Origin: Caulobacter sp. BK020 | GTDB taxonomy: Bacteria; Pseudomonadota; Alphaproteobacteria; Caulobacterales; Caulobacteraceae | NCBI RefSeq assembly: GCF_004342605.1 | Contig: NZ_SLZL01000015.1 | Span: 1-64,000 of the forward strand | Length of the DNA stretch: 64,000 nucleotides | Direction of reading: 5' to 3' | Part shown: positions 15,578-54,172 of the stretch, one piece after another | Layout: each line of letters opens with the position of its first letter | Position numbering within the stretch: position 1 is the stretch's first letter | The notes under the pieces: model-generated | Database searches by the model: none | Told to the model about the DNA's origin: nothing | What the model saw: the letters and a program-made list of their open reading frames with translations, nothing else | Made by a program: the position numbers and the translations under genes

Positions 15578-16300
15578 CTAGGCTCTCGATCTCGCCCAAG
15601 CCTCCCACACCCGCCATCCCAGCAGCACCGCCAGGATCGCGGCATAGACCAGCGGCGGCCGGTGGTCGGCCTTGACCAGCAGGTAGTAGTGGACCACGCC
15701 CAGCGGGACGATCAGGTAGATCAGCCCGTGCAGCCTTTGCCAGGTCGCCCGGCCCAGGCGGATCACCCAGCCGTTGGTCGAGGTCACCGCCAGCGGGATC
15801 AGCAGTACGAATCCGGCCATGCCCAGGGTGATGAAGGGCCGCTTGAGGATGTCCTTCCACAGCTGGCCCCAGTCGAAGAACAGGTCGACGCCGATATAGG
15901 TCAGCAGGTGCAGGCAGACGTAGGCGAAGGCGAACAGGCCGATCGTGCGGCGAAAGCGGACCAGGCGCGGCTTGTTCAGGATCCGCGCGGCCGGGGTGAT
16001 CGCCAGGCCCACCAGCAGCAGGCGCAGGCCCCAGACGCCGATCTGGCGGATCAGAGCCTCGATCGGATTGGCCCCCAGGTCGCCGCTGACCCCCCGCCAG
16101 GCCAGCCAGGCCAGCGGCGCGAAACAGGCCAGCCAGACGGCGGCGTAGACCAGGTTGTCTTGGGTCTTGGAAGGACGCTTGCGCCGGCCCCCTCCGTCGG
16201 CCTTGCCGACACCTCCCCCAGAGGGGGAGGATCTGCGCCGAGCCAGATGCTCCCCCCTTGGGGGAGCTGTCGCGGAGCGACTGAGGGGGTCCCGCGCCAT
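15578..16300 (-). CDS. msrQ: MsrQ, heme-binding membrane subunit of the methionine sulfoxide reductase
   Basis: About 240 aa. Six hydrophobic helices after residue 48 and the sequence FRRTIGLFAFAYVCLHLLTY with further His (WQRLHGLIYL, GVVHYYLL) match the YedZ/MsrQ ferric-reductase-like family, which passes electrons through the inner membrane to MsrP. The ATG at 16300 overlaps the msrP stop (ATGA). Residues about 4-38 are encoded by an interspersed B-family repeat (16188-16290), giving an odd Gly/Arg/Ser-rich extension before the normal N-terminus near KTQDNLVYAAVW. Confidence 0.92.
   Translation of the reverse strand: MARDPLSRSATAPPRGEHLARRRSSPSGGGVGKADGGGRRKRPSKTQDNLVYAAVWLACFAPLAWLAWRGVSGDLGANPIEALIRQIGVWGLRLLLVGLAITPAARILNKPRLVRFRRTIGLFAFAYVCLHLLTYIGVDLFFDWGQLWKDILKRPFITLGMAGFVLLIPLAVTSTNGWVIRLGRATWQRLHGLIYLIVPLGVVHYYLLVKADHRPPLVYAAILAVLLGWRVWEAWARSRA
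16188..16290. repeat. B-family palindromic repeat inside the msrQ coding region
   Basis: Half-element CCCCCTCCG...ACCTCCCCCAGAGGGGGAGG is followed by half-element ATGCTCCCCCC..GGGGGAGCTGTCG..CGACTGAGGGGG. Other copies are at 49991-50100, 52258-52357 and 52734-52833. Here the repeat is kept open in frame. Confidence 0.85.
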
Positions 16301-28093: not shown

Positions 28094-28243
28094 CCCCTTC
28101 TCCCCTTGCGGGAGAAGGGGTCGGCGTAGCCGACGGATGAGGGGTCGTAGGGCGGCGACACCGCGAACGATCGAGGTTGAAAGGTTTGAGAGACCCCTCA
28201 TCCGACCGCCTTCGGCGGCCACCTTCTCCCGCAAGGGGAGAAG
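28094..28243. repeat. C-family inverted repeat pair inside the ccm operon
   Basis: Two arms of about 50 bp, CCCCTTCTCCCCTTGCGGGAG... (28094-28146) and its inverted counterpart ...CTCCCGCAAGGGGAGAAGG (28192-28243), each with its own hairpin (GTCGGCGTAGCCGAC, GCCGCCTTCGGCGGC-like), surround a 45-bp centre. In the ccmF-ccmH transcript the region would form a large stem. Confidence 0.85.
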
Positions 28244-28260
28244 GAAGGGGAAAACCGACC

Positions 28261-49990: not shown

Positions 49991-50100
49991 ATGCTCCCCC
50001 TCCGGGGGAGCTGTCGCGGAGCGACTGAGGGGGTTTTCCGGCCACGGCCGAACCGCCCCCTCCGGCCCTTCGGGCCACCTCCCCCAGAAGGGGAGGATCT
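49991..50100. repeat. B-family repeat, half-elements in reverse order
   Basis: ATGCTCCCCC..GGGGGAGCTGTCG..CGACTGAGGGGG comes first, followed by CCGCCCCCTCCGG..GGCCACCTCCCCCAGAAGGGGAGG. The B1 copy has the halves in the other order, as in BIME-like assemblies. Between GTA gp4 and gp5. Confidence 0.85.
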
Positions 50101-50545: not shown

Positions 50546-50653
50546 CACTTGCCCCCTACGGACCGCTGCGCGGTCGTCTTCCCCCAGAGGGGGAAGAGCG
50601 CTCCGCCCCCTATGGGGGCGGACAGACGGCGAAGCCGTCAGGTGGGGGCAAGT
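50546..50653. repeat. A-family palindromic repeat (copy 6)
   Basis: CACTTGCCCCCTACGGACCGC... to ...GGGGGCAAGT, between GTA gp3.5 and gp4. Confidence 0.9.
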
Positions 50654-50921: not shown

Positions 50922-51041
50922 ACTTGCCCCCTACGGACCGCTGCGCGGTCGTCTTCCCCCAGAGGGGGAAGAGCCAGGCGGTGAAGGCTCCGCCCCCTAT
51001 GGGGGCGGACAGGCGGCGAAGCCGCCAGGTGGGGGCAAGTG
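50922..51041. repeat. A-family palindromic repeat (copy 7)
   Basis: ACTTGCCCCCTACGGACCGC... to ...GGGGGCAAGTG, with an expanded middle hairpin (GAGCCAGGCGGTGAAGGCTCC). Between GTA gp3 and gp3.5. Confidence 0.9.
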
Positions 51042-51043
51042 AA

Positions 51044-52201
51044 CTACCCCTCGAGCCCCGCCAGCCGCCGCCGCTCGGCGTCGGTCAGGAAGCTGGCGCC
51101 CTCCAGACGGGCCCACAGGGCGTCGCGCTCGGCCGACAGGGCCGGCACGGCTTCCAGGTCGCAGGCGATCCGCGCGCCCGGGAACTTCGGCGCCAGCCAG
51201 ACCGACAGGGCCCGCGCCGCCCGCTCGGCCAGCGGGACCACCGTGTGGCGCCAGAACGCGCCGTTGGCCTCGCGGTAGTTGGCGTAGGTCGCGTCACCGG
51301 GCACGCCCAGCAGCTGGGGCGGCACCCCGAAGGCCAGGGCGATCTCGCGCGCCGCGGCGTGCTTGCCTTCGATGAAGTCCATGTCAGCCGGGGTCAGCGA
51401 CATCGGCCGCCAGTCCAGGCCGCCCTCCAGCAGCAGCGGCCGGCCGGCGTTGGCGGTCCCGGCGTGGGCGTCGGAAAGCTCGGCCTTCAGCCGCTCGAAC
51501 TGCTCGGCCGAGAGCCGGTCGCCGGCCTCGCGGTTGGCGTAGACCAGGGCTCCCGACGGCCGGGCGCTGTTGTCGAGCAGGGCCTTGTTCCAGGCCCCCG
51601 AGGCGTTGTGCACGTCGATCGCGAAGGCCGCCGCCTCCAGCGGGCTGAAGCCGTAATGGTCGTCGGTCGGGTTGAACAGCTTCAGGTGCAGCACCGGCAG
51701 CCAGCCCGAGGCGTCGCGGCCGATCCGCGCCGTGCGGCCGGCGACCTGGTAGTCATAGGCCAGCGGCCAGCCGCGCGGCCCGGGGACCACGGTCATCCGG
51801 TCGGGTCGCAGCGCGTAGAGCTCGGTCGGAGCATTCTCTCCCCCTCCTTTGTCTTGGGCCGCCTCGATGTAGCCGTTCCCCGCCACCTGCAGGCAGCCGA
51901 AGAACGCCTCCATCAGGTCGGCCCCGCCCTGCTCGGGATTGGGGGCCTGCAGCAGCCGGCGCAGCGGATGGTCGTCGGCCCGCCGGCCTTCGACGAACAC
52001 GGCCAGCGGCACGGCCGCGGCGGCCTCGGCGATCATCCGCACGCAGCGATAGGCGATCGGGTTCTTGCCGAAGCCCTCGGACGCCAGGGCGGCGTAGTCC
52101 CGCGGCGTCCACTTGGGCCGCCCCGCCGTGGTCAGGGCGATCAGGCGCGCGGCCCGGGAGTCCTTGGCCTCCGGCGGGCGGCGGGGTTTGAACAGGGGCA
52201 T
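51044..52201 (-). CDS. GTA portal protein, HK97 family (gp3-like)
   Basis: 385 aa from the ATG at 52201. Portal signatures: GFGKNPIAYRCVRMIAEAAAAVPL, LMEAFFGCLQVAGNGYIE, FSPLEAAAFAIDVHNASGAWNKALLDNSARPSG, and GVPPQLLGVPGDATYANYREANGAFW. It forms the dodecameric DNA channel. Its upstream neighbour should be the terminase, but a DUF559 cassette is inserted between them. Confidence 0.95.
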   Translation of the reverse strand: MPLFKPRRPPEAKDSRAARLIALTTAGRPKWTPRDYAALASEGFGKNPIAYRCVRMIAEAAAAVPLAVFVEGRRADDHPLRRLLQAPNPEQGGADLMEAFFGCLQVAGNGYIEAAQDKGGGENAPTELYALRPDRMTVVPGPRGWPLAYDYQVAGRTARIGRDASGWLPVLHLKLFNPTDDHYGFSPLEAAAFAIDVHNASGAWNKALLDNSARPSGALVYANREAGDRLSAEQFERLKAELSDAHAGTANAGRPLLLEGGLDWRPMSLTPADMDFIEGKHAAAREIALAFGVPPQLLGVPGDATYANYREANGAFWRHTVVPLAERAARALSVWLAPKFPGARIACDLEAVPALSAERDALWARLEGASFLTDAERRRLAGLEG

Positions 52202-52257
52202 GTCGGCGCCTCGCGGTTGAGAACGAATAGGGAACATGTTAGGGTTGTCGGGGAAAG

Positions 52258-52357
52258 CCCCCTCAGTCGCTTCGCGACAGCTCCCCCAGAGGGGGAGCAT
52301 CCGCGCCGCGATAGATCCTCCCCCTCTGGGGGAGGTGGCCCGAAGGGCCGGAGGGGG
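52258..52357. repeat. B-family repeat (left arm of the DUF559 cassette)
   Basis: CCCCCTCAGTCG..CGACAGCTCCCCCAGAGGGGGAGCAT then GATCCTCCCCCTCTGGGGGAGG..GGCCGGAGGGGG. It is the inverse of the right arm, allowing for scattered differences. Confidence 0.88.
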
Positions 52358-52380
52358 CTCGCGGCGGTGGAGGCAATTTC

Positions 52381-52785
52381 ATGGACGCGCCACGGCGCAC
52401 ACGAAACTTCGCCAGGCAGCTGCGACGCGAGATGTCGCTGCCCGAAGTCCTGCTGTGGCTGGGCCTGAAAGTCCGACGACTCGAAGGCCTGCATTTCCGC
52501 AAGCAGCATCCGATCGGGCCCTACGTGCTCGACTTCTACTGCGACGAAGTGAAACTGGCTGTCGAGGTGGACGGCGGAGGTCATGCCTCCGGCGACCGGC
52601 CTTGGCTGGATGCTGTTCGCGACGACTGGATGGCGCGACAGGGAATCAGAACCTTGCGGATTCCGGCGGTCGAGGTTCTGGAATGCGTCGACGGCGCGCT
52701 TTCGACGATCCTTTCGGAAGCGCGGCGCGGACCCCCTCCGACCCTCCGGGCCACCTCCCCCAGAGGGGGAGGATCTACGCCATGA
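52381..52785 (+). CDS. DUF559 (Vsr-like endonuclease fold) protein
   Basis: 134 aa, GGAGG before the ATG. DUF559 core: ARQLRREMSLPEVLLWLGLK, FRKQHPIGPYVLDFYCDEVKLAVEVDGGGHA (Asp and Glu of the PD-(D/E)XK-like site), RDDWMARQGIRTLRIPAVEVL. Homologous to the Vsr mismatch-nuclease fold, but activity is unproven. Residues about 118-134 (RATSPRGGGSTP tail) are encoded by the right repeat arm. It lies on the strand opposite to the GTA genes. Confidence 0.92.
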   Translation: MDAPRRTRNFARQLRREMSLPEVLLWLGLKVRRLEGLHFRKQHPIGPYVLDFYCDEVKLAVEVDGGGHASGDRPWLDAVRDDWMARQGIRTLRIPAVEVLECVDGALSTILSEARRGPPPTLRATSPRGGGSTP

Positions 52786-52833
52786 TAGATGCTCCCCCGC
52801 TGGGGGAGCTGTCGGCGAAGCCGACTGAGGGGG
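52732..52833. repeat. B-family repeat (right arm of the DUF559 cassette)
   Basis: CCCCCTCCGACCCTCCGGGCCACCTCCCCCAG... to ...GTCGGCGAAGCCGACTGAGGGGG. Same orientation as the copy inside msrQ; inverse of the left arm. Confidence 0.88.
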
Positions 52834-52843
52834 CCTTCCCCCC

Positions 52844-54172
52844 TTACAACACCCTCAGCCTCGGCCTTCTCCCCACCCCCAGCATCAGCTCGCTGACGGC
52901 CCAGACCAGGGCGTCGGCGCGGTCGGGGCTGTGGTCCAGGTCGCCCGAGCCCAGGGCCATCAGTTCCTCCTCCAGGGCCGGGAAGGCTCCGCAGTGGACC
53001 ACGCGGCCCTGCTCGTACAGCGCCGCCACCGGCTCGGCCCGGGCCCGCTTGCCGAGCGAGGCCTTGACCAGCTTGACCGCGCACGGCGGGCCGGCCTGGG
53101 CCAGGACGGCGCGGACCATGTCGCCGCCCTGGTTGGCCTCGGCCACCAGGGCGTCGGCGTTCCAGCGCGCGGCGGCCTCGACCGCCCGGCGGGCCCAGCC
53201 GTTCGGCGACAGGCCCCGCGCGGTGCGGTCTTCGAGCACGAAGGCCCTGCCGTCGTGACGCCCGCAGACCACGATCCCGCAGGCGTCGCCGCCCGCCGTG
53301 GCCGGCGGGTCGACGGCCACGACCACGCGCTCGAAGGCGGCCGGCGGCGCGCCCCGGCAGCGGGCCAGGTCCTCGGCCCGGAACAGCCCGCCCTCGCCCT
53401 CGACGATCAGGCCGTCCAGCTCCTGGGCGGCCAGGCGGGTGCCGCCGTAGAGGCCCTGCAGGGTCGACAGGAAGGCCGGGGCCAGGTGGTCGGCGTTGGC
53501 GTGGGTCGGCGCGCGGGTGTTGGCCGTGCCCGGTTCGGCGATCAGGTTGCGCAGGGCGCGGATCGGCCGGGGCGTGGTGGTGACCACCAGGCGCGGATCG
53601 GTCCCCAGGCGCAGGCCGAAACGCAGCATGGCCAGGGTCTCGGCCGGCCGGGGCCAGGCGCAGAACTCGTCGGCCCAGGCGGCGTGGAACTGCGGCCCGC
53701 GCAAGGCGTCGGGATCCTCAGCCGAGAAGGCGTAGGCGACAGCGCCGTTGGGGAACAGCAGTCGCTTGCGAGTGGCTTCCCAGCGTGGACGGGCCCCGAC
53801 CGGATAGAGACTCTTGAGACCGGAAGGTCCCTCGATCATCACCTCGCGCACGTCGTGGAAGGTGGGGCCGACCAAGGCCAGGGCGTCACCCCGCCGAGCC
53901 TGTTCCTTGATCCAGGCCGCGCCGGCGAAGGTCTTGCCGGCTCCACGGCCGCCCAGGAACAGCCAGGTCGTCCAGGACTCAGACGGGGGACGCTGATGCT
54001 CCGCCCTTGGTTTCCAGGCCGCTCGGCAGCGCTCGATCCGCTGGTACGCCGCCGCGCCCAACCATTTGCTTAGATTCTCGGGCGGTTCGAGCAGCATCCA
54101 GTCGGCGTCGGATGTCGGCGTGAATTTCGCCCATCCGCTCGGGGGTTCGGCCAGAGTCGTCATCCATCTCAA
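52844..54172 (-). CDS. GTA large terminase (gp2-like)
   Basis: 442 aa. ATPase Walker A GGRGAGKT (74-81) and Walker B AAWADEF (Asp168, Glu169), then a C-terminal nuclease domain with VAVDPPATAGGDACGI and ALVAEANQGGDMV and a final DHSPDRADALVWAV. It packages host DNA by headful. The start may be the second Met (54163). The N-terminal 65 codons overlap the gp1-like gene in another frame. Catalytic motifs look intact. Confidence 0.95.
   Translation of the reverse strand: MRWMTTLAEPPSGWAKFTPTSDADWMLLEPPENLSKWLGAAAYQRIERCRAAWKPRAEHQRPPSESWTTWLFLGGRGAGKTFAGAAWIKEQARRGDALALVGPTFHDVREVMIEGPSGLKSLYPVGARPRWEATRKRLLFPNGAVAYAFSAEDPDALRGPQFHAAWADEFCAWPRPAETLAMLRFGLRLGTDPRLVVTTTPRPIRALRNLIAEPGTANTRAPTHANADHLAPAFLSTLQGLYGGTRLAAQELDGLIVEGEGGLFRAEDLARCRGAPPAAFERVVVAVDPPATAGGDACGIVVCGRHDGRAFVLEDRTARGLSPNGWARRAVEAAARWNADALVAEANQGGDMVRAVLAQAGPPCAVKLVKASLGKRARAEPVAALYEQGRVVHCGAFPALEEELMALGSGDLDHSPDRADALVWAVSELMLGVGRRPRLRVL

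Follow-up and report, generated by a model that had tools for sequence, protein, structure and literature searches.

A DUF559 nuclease gene between inverted hairpin arms in Caulobacter, a candidate member of a class of minimal mobile units

DUF559 nuclease genes lie between inverted copies of a repeat in genomes of several phyla, and this boxed arrangement is a general unit and not the outcome of chance or a local oddity. The window analysed here, a stretch of 64,000 nucleotides of Caulobacter sp. BK020 (contig NZ_SLZL01000015.1, positions 1 to 64,000), holds one such unit between the portal and terminase genes of a gene transfer agent (GTA) cluster. We consider it reasonably likely that the unit is a minimal element whose own nuclease mobilises it at folded arms, in a manner analogous to REP/RAYT systems although with an unrelated enzyme, DUF559 presumably being the catalyst. 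The locus comprises the following features.

51044 to 52201, minus strand: GTA/phage portal gene adjoining the box (PF04860, E 6.4e-86), likely start near 52201
52250 to 52366, plus strand: left arm, a near-palindromic doublet (outer unit about 52258-52301, inner unit about 52313-52357)
52381 to 52785, plus strand: coding sequence of a DUF559, predicted Vsr-like PD-(D/E)XK nuclease of 134 amino acids (PF04480, E 8.9e-26)
52723 to 52841, minus strand: right arm, an inverted copy of the left arm, encoding the C-terminus and stop codon of the nuclease
52844 to 54172, minus strand: GTA/phage terminase large subunit gene adjoining the box (PF03237, E 3.2e-35; PF17289, E 4.6e-30)

The first-pass annotation had placed a DUF559 gene between inverted arms, and the alignment bears this out: the arms are 86.7% identical in inverted orientation over 120 columns. 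Their matched GGGGAARG extensions, also described there, agree at 95% over 20 nt, and the last 17 codons plus the stop codon do lie inside the right arm if this is counted from 52732. Each arm is a doublet of two units of about 45 bp that is 80% self-inverse, which is why the arms also align in direct orientation (79-81%); at other loci of the genus an arm mostly consists of one unit of about 54 bp (median). When folded as single-stranded DNA, the left and right arms reach -45.5 kcal/mol (z -5.3) and -40.3 kcal/mol (z -4.5), respectively. An RNA family was rejected, as an Rfam search of the locus gave no match over any family threshold and only sub-threshold microRNA and mraW matches. DUF559 is the only open reading frame of the unit and PF04480 its only Pfam match. 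The longest portal reading frame (51044-52300, minus strand) starts inside the left arm; a start at MPLFKPRR... near 52201 is likelier and falls outside that arm, and the portal gene is therefore probably not cut by the box.

The window protein scores 90.3 bits against PF04480 (cut-off 20.6) and thus belongs to DUF559. An alignment of 44 sequences revealed E22, D51, E62, D64 and H68 as invariant, and R80 and R93 are also among the conserved residues. Foldseek comparison of its AlphaFold model (pLDDT 86.6) retrieved 3hrl, the solved structure of a DUF559 protein of Neisseria gonorrhoeae (E 1.5e-6), followed by I-Bth0305I (3r3p; 6.2e-4), PvuRts1I/AbaSI, Vsr (E 0.07) and TnsA. Among characterised proteins, the homing endonuclease I-Bth0305I is the closest relative, and it is also matched by sequence (E 0.0016). 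Predicted fold and active-site residues together place the protein in the PD-(D/E)XK nuclease superfamily. We know of no transposase fold in DUF559 proteins, a point that counts against a mobile unit.

Boxing was scored as an inverted match with a local score of at least 18 within at most 350 bp on either side of the DUF559 domain. Genomes positive for DUF559 numbered 56 of 61 in the genus, 63 of 192 in the class and 112 of 299 in the phylum; 100 extra stretches, mostly of 12 kb, were hand-picked among the matches listed and are not a random sample. A sense-only profile yielded 216 distinct DUF559 domains, of which 212 were tested and four skipped. Inverted arms were found at 158 of these 212 genes, and at 145 with a stricter score of 22, the threshold of 18 having been set after a first look at the data. 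By set, the boxed genes amounted to 76/89 in the genus, 25/26 at the GTA site, 32/45 in the class and 24/50 in the phylum, with one of one for the other gene taken from the window's own genome and none of one for E. coli. When windows of identical geometry were moved along the 12-kb stretches outside DUF559, leaving out every place with a match to the profile, only 4 of 7,844 were boxed at score 18. The expectation of the first-pass annotation that such arms accompany DUF559 genes of related genomes beyond chance is thereby confirmed, and a random association is rejected. Control genes tested with inset windows behaved in the same way (4/646 other genes and 1/211 short genes boxed). An earlier gene control with whole reading frames had given 5/822 for other genes and only 21/89 for DUF559, the latter being low because the called reading frames swallow the arms.

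A second set of named loci from many phyla gave 49 boxed genes out of 73, as opposed to 4 of 3,055 control windows. It started from 80 loci, one of which (L308) was dropped for a run of N and six of which were skipped at contig ends, and its genomes may overlap with those of the first set. Its hosts include alpha-, beta-, gamma- and deltaproteobacteria, Gastranaerophilales, one cyanobacterium, Nitrospirae and Kuenenia. Three of five loci from a plasmid collection (Sphingobium, Azospirillum and Deinococcus) were boxed; the repeats of the N. gonorrhoeae locus are in direct orientation and the Sphingomonas locus is unboxed. The DUF559 gene of the Deinococcus plasmid lies between paaD and paaZ, and that of the Sphingomonas plasmid, which has no arms by the boxing test, between pnt transhydrogenase genes.

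Unboxed genes (54/212 and 24/73) count against the idea of a mobile unit; E. coli ycjD is one of them, as are half of the genes in the phylum-level set. E. coli ycjD was rejected as a boxed case; it has one triplex motif at its 3' side. The ycjD region of the fabI-ycjD-sapF locus is covered to at least 80% in 3,333 of 5,375 matching E. coli genomes. Two other E. coli strains carry an efflux operon after fabI in its place, an arrangement also reported in the available part of PMC12817139.

Palindromes of one pattern, searched in the 192 genomes of the class, were present in at least three copies in 36 of the 48 genomes that match DUF559 strongly versus 10 of 144 others, among which are counted 15 genomes with weak or partial matches (Fisher p 1e-19, kinship and genome size being ignored). 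The exceptions, fewer than three copies in 12 of the 48 DUF559-bearing genomes and at least three in 10 of the 144 lacking DUF559, again weigh against mobility.

The family to which the arms belong tracks the clade of the protein. For pairs taken across genomes and sites, arms were alike (similarity above 0.5) in 2% of cases at less than 45% protein identity, in 8% at 45-55%, in 46% at 55-65%, in 86% at 65-75% and in 98% at 75-90%. The same holds among paralogues within one genome, whose arms were alike in 1% of pairs below 45% identity versus 82% at 60% or more. The correlation between arm and protein (rho 0.505) exceeds the maximum of 500 within-genome shuffles of the arms (0.270). Since arms match the protein even within genomes, a chance fall of the gene between the resident repeats of its host is rejected.

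The genome from which the window was taken contains three DUF559 genes, all tightly boxed by inverted repeats that differ from one gene to the next (120, 71 and 48 columns at 87, 93 and 90% identity). The left arm of the window unit recurs at a minimum of 40 places of this genome, both window arms included; this figure results from merging 79 listed matches, the best 40 of 162 candidates having been scored. Copies that lack the gene are present in the window itself.

16188 to 16291, minus strand: gene-less copy of the window arm doublet, 84.6% to the arm of a DUF559 locus (L089)
28095 to 28245, no strand assigned: gene-less pair in inverted orientation that resembles the arms of DUF559 loci of other species (L032, L150) at 96-98%
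49994 to 50100, no strand assigned: gene-less copy of the window arm family, two units
50548 to 50652, no strand assigned: gene-less units, with 50601-50652 matching the arm of another species' GTA-site DUF559 gene (L090) at 98%

The repeats that arm the GTA-site gene at L090 occur without a gene in the window, at 50601 and at 50988. The dispersed form of the window's own arm family is a back-to-back doublet, unlike the convergent gene-less pairs of other families.

Gene and arms move together. The 102 boxed loci of the genus occupy 46 oriented sites, which become 39 once opposite orientations are merged, one merged cluster of 36 being an over-merging. One family of protein plus arms has 49 copies there in 23 genomes and accounts for 30 of the oriented or 25 of the merged sites, and a single genome can hold up to 13 DUF559 copies. 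Two copies at different sites of the same genome (L135 and L132 in G034) are 97.6% identical over 535 bp; their homology stops at most 8 bp from the arms, and that of many other pairs stops at the same edges. The gap downstream of a YmdB-like gene, between it and an 'Ohr' marker that is an out-of-frame translation but still marks that DNA, holds the unit in 5 of 30 loci, three along and two against YmdB. In 12 of the 25 unit-free loci, YmdB and the next marker are at most 200 bp apart and DUF559 is absent. Another site (L122) harbours a boxed gene in G041, a gene-less pair of the same family in G057, a gene-less pair of another family in G051 and neither in G001, whose flanks lie together without arms and with another stretch of about 1 kb between them. 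Three further genomes (G008, G054 and G055) were discarded as empty L122 sites because the two flanks lie apart. Gene-less neighbouring units at most 200 bp apart are convergent, as in a box, in 28 cases, divergent in four and in tandem in five.

The edges of the units were compared at 30 independent sites of one arm family (CCCTCTC). Target duplications, envisaged in the first-pass annotation, were not seen there: the mean flanking direct repeat is 0.73 nt, the same as in shuffled sequences (0.73). Palindromic extension past the arms (mean 1.07 nt versus 0.69 shuffled, with a shuffle maximum of 1.23) is not significant. An A precedes CCCTC at position -2 in 25 of the 30 sites, counted by eye, and may represent an element end or a target preference. 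An exact empty-to-filled junction was not found at L122, L148 or three E. coli repeat pairs, where flanks are too divergent, and this counts against movement.

Some further repeats deserve mention in their own right. A separate repeat of about 350 bp adjoins the boxed DUF559 gene of L148 (4000-8000, minus strand; query about 1301-1669) and has many copies, about 77-84% alike, in most of nine genus genomes searched. Beside the gene that flanks the L122 unit, G054 carries another long palindrome pair (L263, about 2660-2780), by eye of the type TTAGAGC...GCTCTAA. Between hrpB and mrcB of E. coli K-12 (L347; relatives L349-L352) lies a triplex-motif pair; strains C7, E66 and MS20659 lack it as a block of about 102 bp, and DEC9B retains a single hairpin.

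The copy in the window has a history of its own. Thirty terminase loci were fetched in the genus, two of which (L096 and L108) are cut by contig ends. DUF559 lies beside the terminase gene in 27 of the 28 informative loci, with portal, DUF559 and terminase in one stretch in 26. The remaining locus, L103, has a gene-less inverted arm pair at the terminase-portal site, so that the same insertion in all relatives without an empty site is nearly, if not entirely, what is seen. At L094 (G007) an IS-like insert with a transposase reading frame lies inside an arm, between DUF559 and terminase. The tree groups all 26 GTA-site proteins in a single clade (support 0.87), and the gene is under purifying selection (dN/dS 0.05-0.17 in 10 pairs). 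A recent insertion into the GTA cluster is ruled out for this copy by its presence in 27 of 28 loci and by the single clade, and with it the earlier proposal that the unit had inserted into the terminase-portal site. The compact mobile unit proposed in the same place stands for the general class, with its 158 boxed genes and its many sites, and falls as regards recent insertion at this locus. The arm pair at the GTA site changes between species and tends to stay matched: left and right arms within a locus score 36.1 versus 24.2 for left arms between loci, and in 13 GTA-site loci the locus' own right arm is the best of 25. The unit looks like an old resident whose arms are renewed in step. It has hardly moved, which counts against a mobile unit. 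L160, a copy located elsewhere than at the GTA site, shares 66% protein identity with a GTA-site copy; such copies were sought among the matches listed (to about E 4e-29), which may lack relatives of the GTA clade with low scores.

According to the model that we favour, the window unit would be an old representative, still under constraint, of a class of elements of about 500 bp that consist of an arm, a DUF559 gene and an inverted arm. Their arms would form hairpins and belong to the 'intrastrand triplex' type of repeat. The nuclease would recognise its own arm family and nick or cut within the folded arm or next to it, after which repair or replication by the host would copy or join the arm-to-arm stretch elsewhere, leaving no target duplication. 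Gene-less inverted arm pairs would be the non-autonomous copies. We infer that DUF559 cuts the arms and drives movement, as we do every chemical step; a cut-and-copy route through hairpins or replication fits because target duplications are absent, homology runs exactly from arm to arm and gene-less pairs exist. More tentatively, and with slightly more doubt than conviction, we suggest that in several phyla a lone nuclease of the Vsr/homing PD-(D/E)XK type moves the DNA enclosed by cognate hairpin arms, requiring neither a transposase nor a recombinase and leaving no target duplication, and that intrastrand-triplex repeats, those of E. coli included, are its gene-less offspring.

For the window copy, a rather unlikely though serious alternative is that the unit was captured long ago by the GTA cluster and now serves it, for example by cutting DNA at packaging or uptake. 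Its presence in nearly all informative relatives, the single clade and the low dN/dS are in line with this, and so is the numbering of C. crescentus genes: terminase CCNA_02880, portal CCNA_02877 and capsid CCNA_02872 are given in the available part of PMC9632790, and the Vsr-like CCNA_02876, which is 3.8-fold up in the scmA mutant according to the available part of PMC12907096, falls in that range. However, L103 does without the gene, and the arms are still matched pairs, for which packaging has no need. Service to the GTA cluster and movement are compatible readings, and their probabilities overlap.

We regard it as improbable that DUF559 is a host-kept mismatch repair nuclease of the Vsr type, acting on 5-methylcytosine deamination, with arms that hitch-hike or serve as regulatory hairpins. 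The known in vivo data on DUF559 do point to mismatch repair and count against mobility: as described in the available part of PMC12907096, the DUF559 protein VsrA damages DNA in Caulobacter cells without a cytosine methylase and causes an SOS response in C. crescentus lacking the methylase ScmA. That part of the source does not mention flanking palindromes with VsrA. YcjD detects Vsr by profile comparison (PMC1189080, in the part available), Vsr is among the Foldseek matches of the window protein, and the vertical inheritance of the GTA-site gene under purifying selection would suit a repair gene. Yet boxing by own cognate repeats at 25-30 sites and up to 13 copies per genome are unexpected for repair genes. 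Moreover, the two roles can coexist, and the nuclease may act in repair alongside mobilisation.

Similarly improbable is a parasite resembling a homing endonuclease, whose enzyme would cleave a target that is empty or carries a solo hairpin; recombination would then copy the unit in, and the arms would be what is left of the target on either side. Its appeal lies in the relationship to I-Bth0305I, in the varied contents of a given gap, which may be a boxed gene, a gene-less pair or a lone hairpin, and in the pair reduced to one hairpin in E. coli DEC9B. Homing, however, normally targets one allelic site, and for this reason the unrelated flanks of the sites of one family speak against it. That GC-rich hairpins, abundant as they are in these genomes, end up around any small gene by chance or as terminators is highly implausible, being refuted by the counts for control windows, other genes and short genes and opposed by the lack of terminator-like sites in 52100-53000 and by the cognate matching of arms and proteins.

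The recurring pairing of nuclease and arms, as interpreted here, suggests minimal mobile DNA and could explain the spread of a widespread family of bacterial repeats, whose origin would become directly testable through a cognate nuclease. If true, it would provide a role for DUF559, still 'of unknown function' in Pfam, and add one more enzyme fold to the short list of those able to spread DNA. The pairs of protein clade and arm family offer material that a specificity assay could use directly, and with the GTA-site copy a gene transfer agent cluster gains a nuclease. A link of DUF559 to palindromic or triplex repeats was not found in the accessible text of the open-access literature searched.

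Among known systems, insertion sequences and MITEs share with the DUF559 units inverted ends and the occurrence of autonomous and gene-less forms. Unlike DDE transposons, the units contain no transposase gene, and the 30 CCCTCTC-family sites show no excess of target duplication over shuffles. Vsr and VsrA are alike in fold and DUF559 domain and as nicking or cutting nucleases; they differ in that the available parts of the literature examined do not describe Vsr as repeat-boxed or mobile. I-Bth0305I, nearest by fold and profile match among characterised proteins, is intron-encoded (PDB title 'mobile intron protein') and has no inverted-repeat box.

In their DNA, the units resemble the intrastrand triplex motifs (TM/PIT repeats; Holder et al. 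2015, PMC4666352, in the part available): the arms of many loci seem to share the layout CCCTCTCCC..GGGAGAGGG(N)GGGGTGAGGG, the E. coli motif of these authors. By eye, many arms of loci L267-L346 fit CCCTC..GAGGG plus a third G-rich strand, and the window arm is a CTCCCCC..GGGGGAG variant, whereas several DUF559 arm families lack the exact core. Inverted pairs and strain polymorphism are common to that report and to the E. coli strains considered here. The available text of PMC4666352 assigns no enzyme to triplex repeats, and the word endonuclease is absent from its main text.

A further parallel is offered by REP/REPIN repeats and their RAYT (TnpA-REP) proteins. RAYT is an HUH tyrosine (Y1) enzyme whereas DUF559 is a PD-(D/E)XK nuclease without HUH; a GTAG-tagged arm was not seen in the arms analysed here, which are longer and have a layout like that of the triplex motif. 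CGTC repeats of alphaproteobacteria have no dedicated transposase according to the available part of PMC3733652. As described in the available parts of PMC3116915, PMC8266576 and PMC3733652, REP/RAYT systems have palindromic repeats that are scattered as inverted doublets, one single-domain enzyme gene with its cognate repeats on both sides, and several families per genome. The defining arrangement of these systems, an enzyme gene flanked by cognate palindromes that are dispersed as inverted doublets, is present in the DUF559 units.
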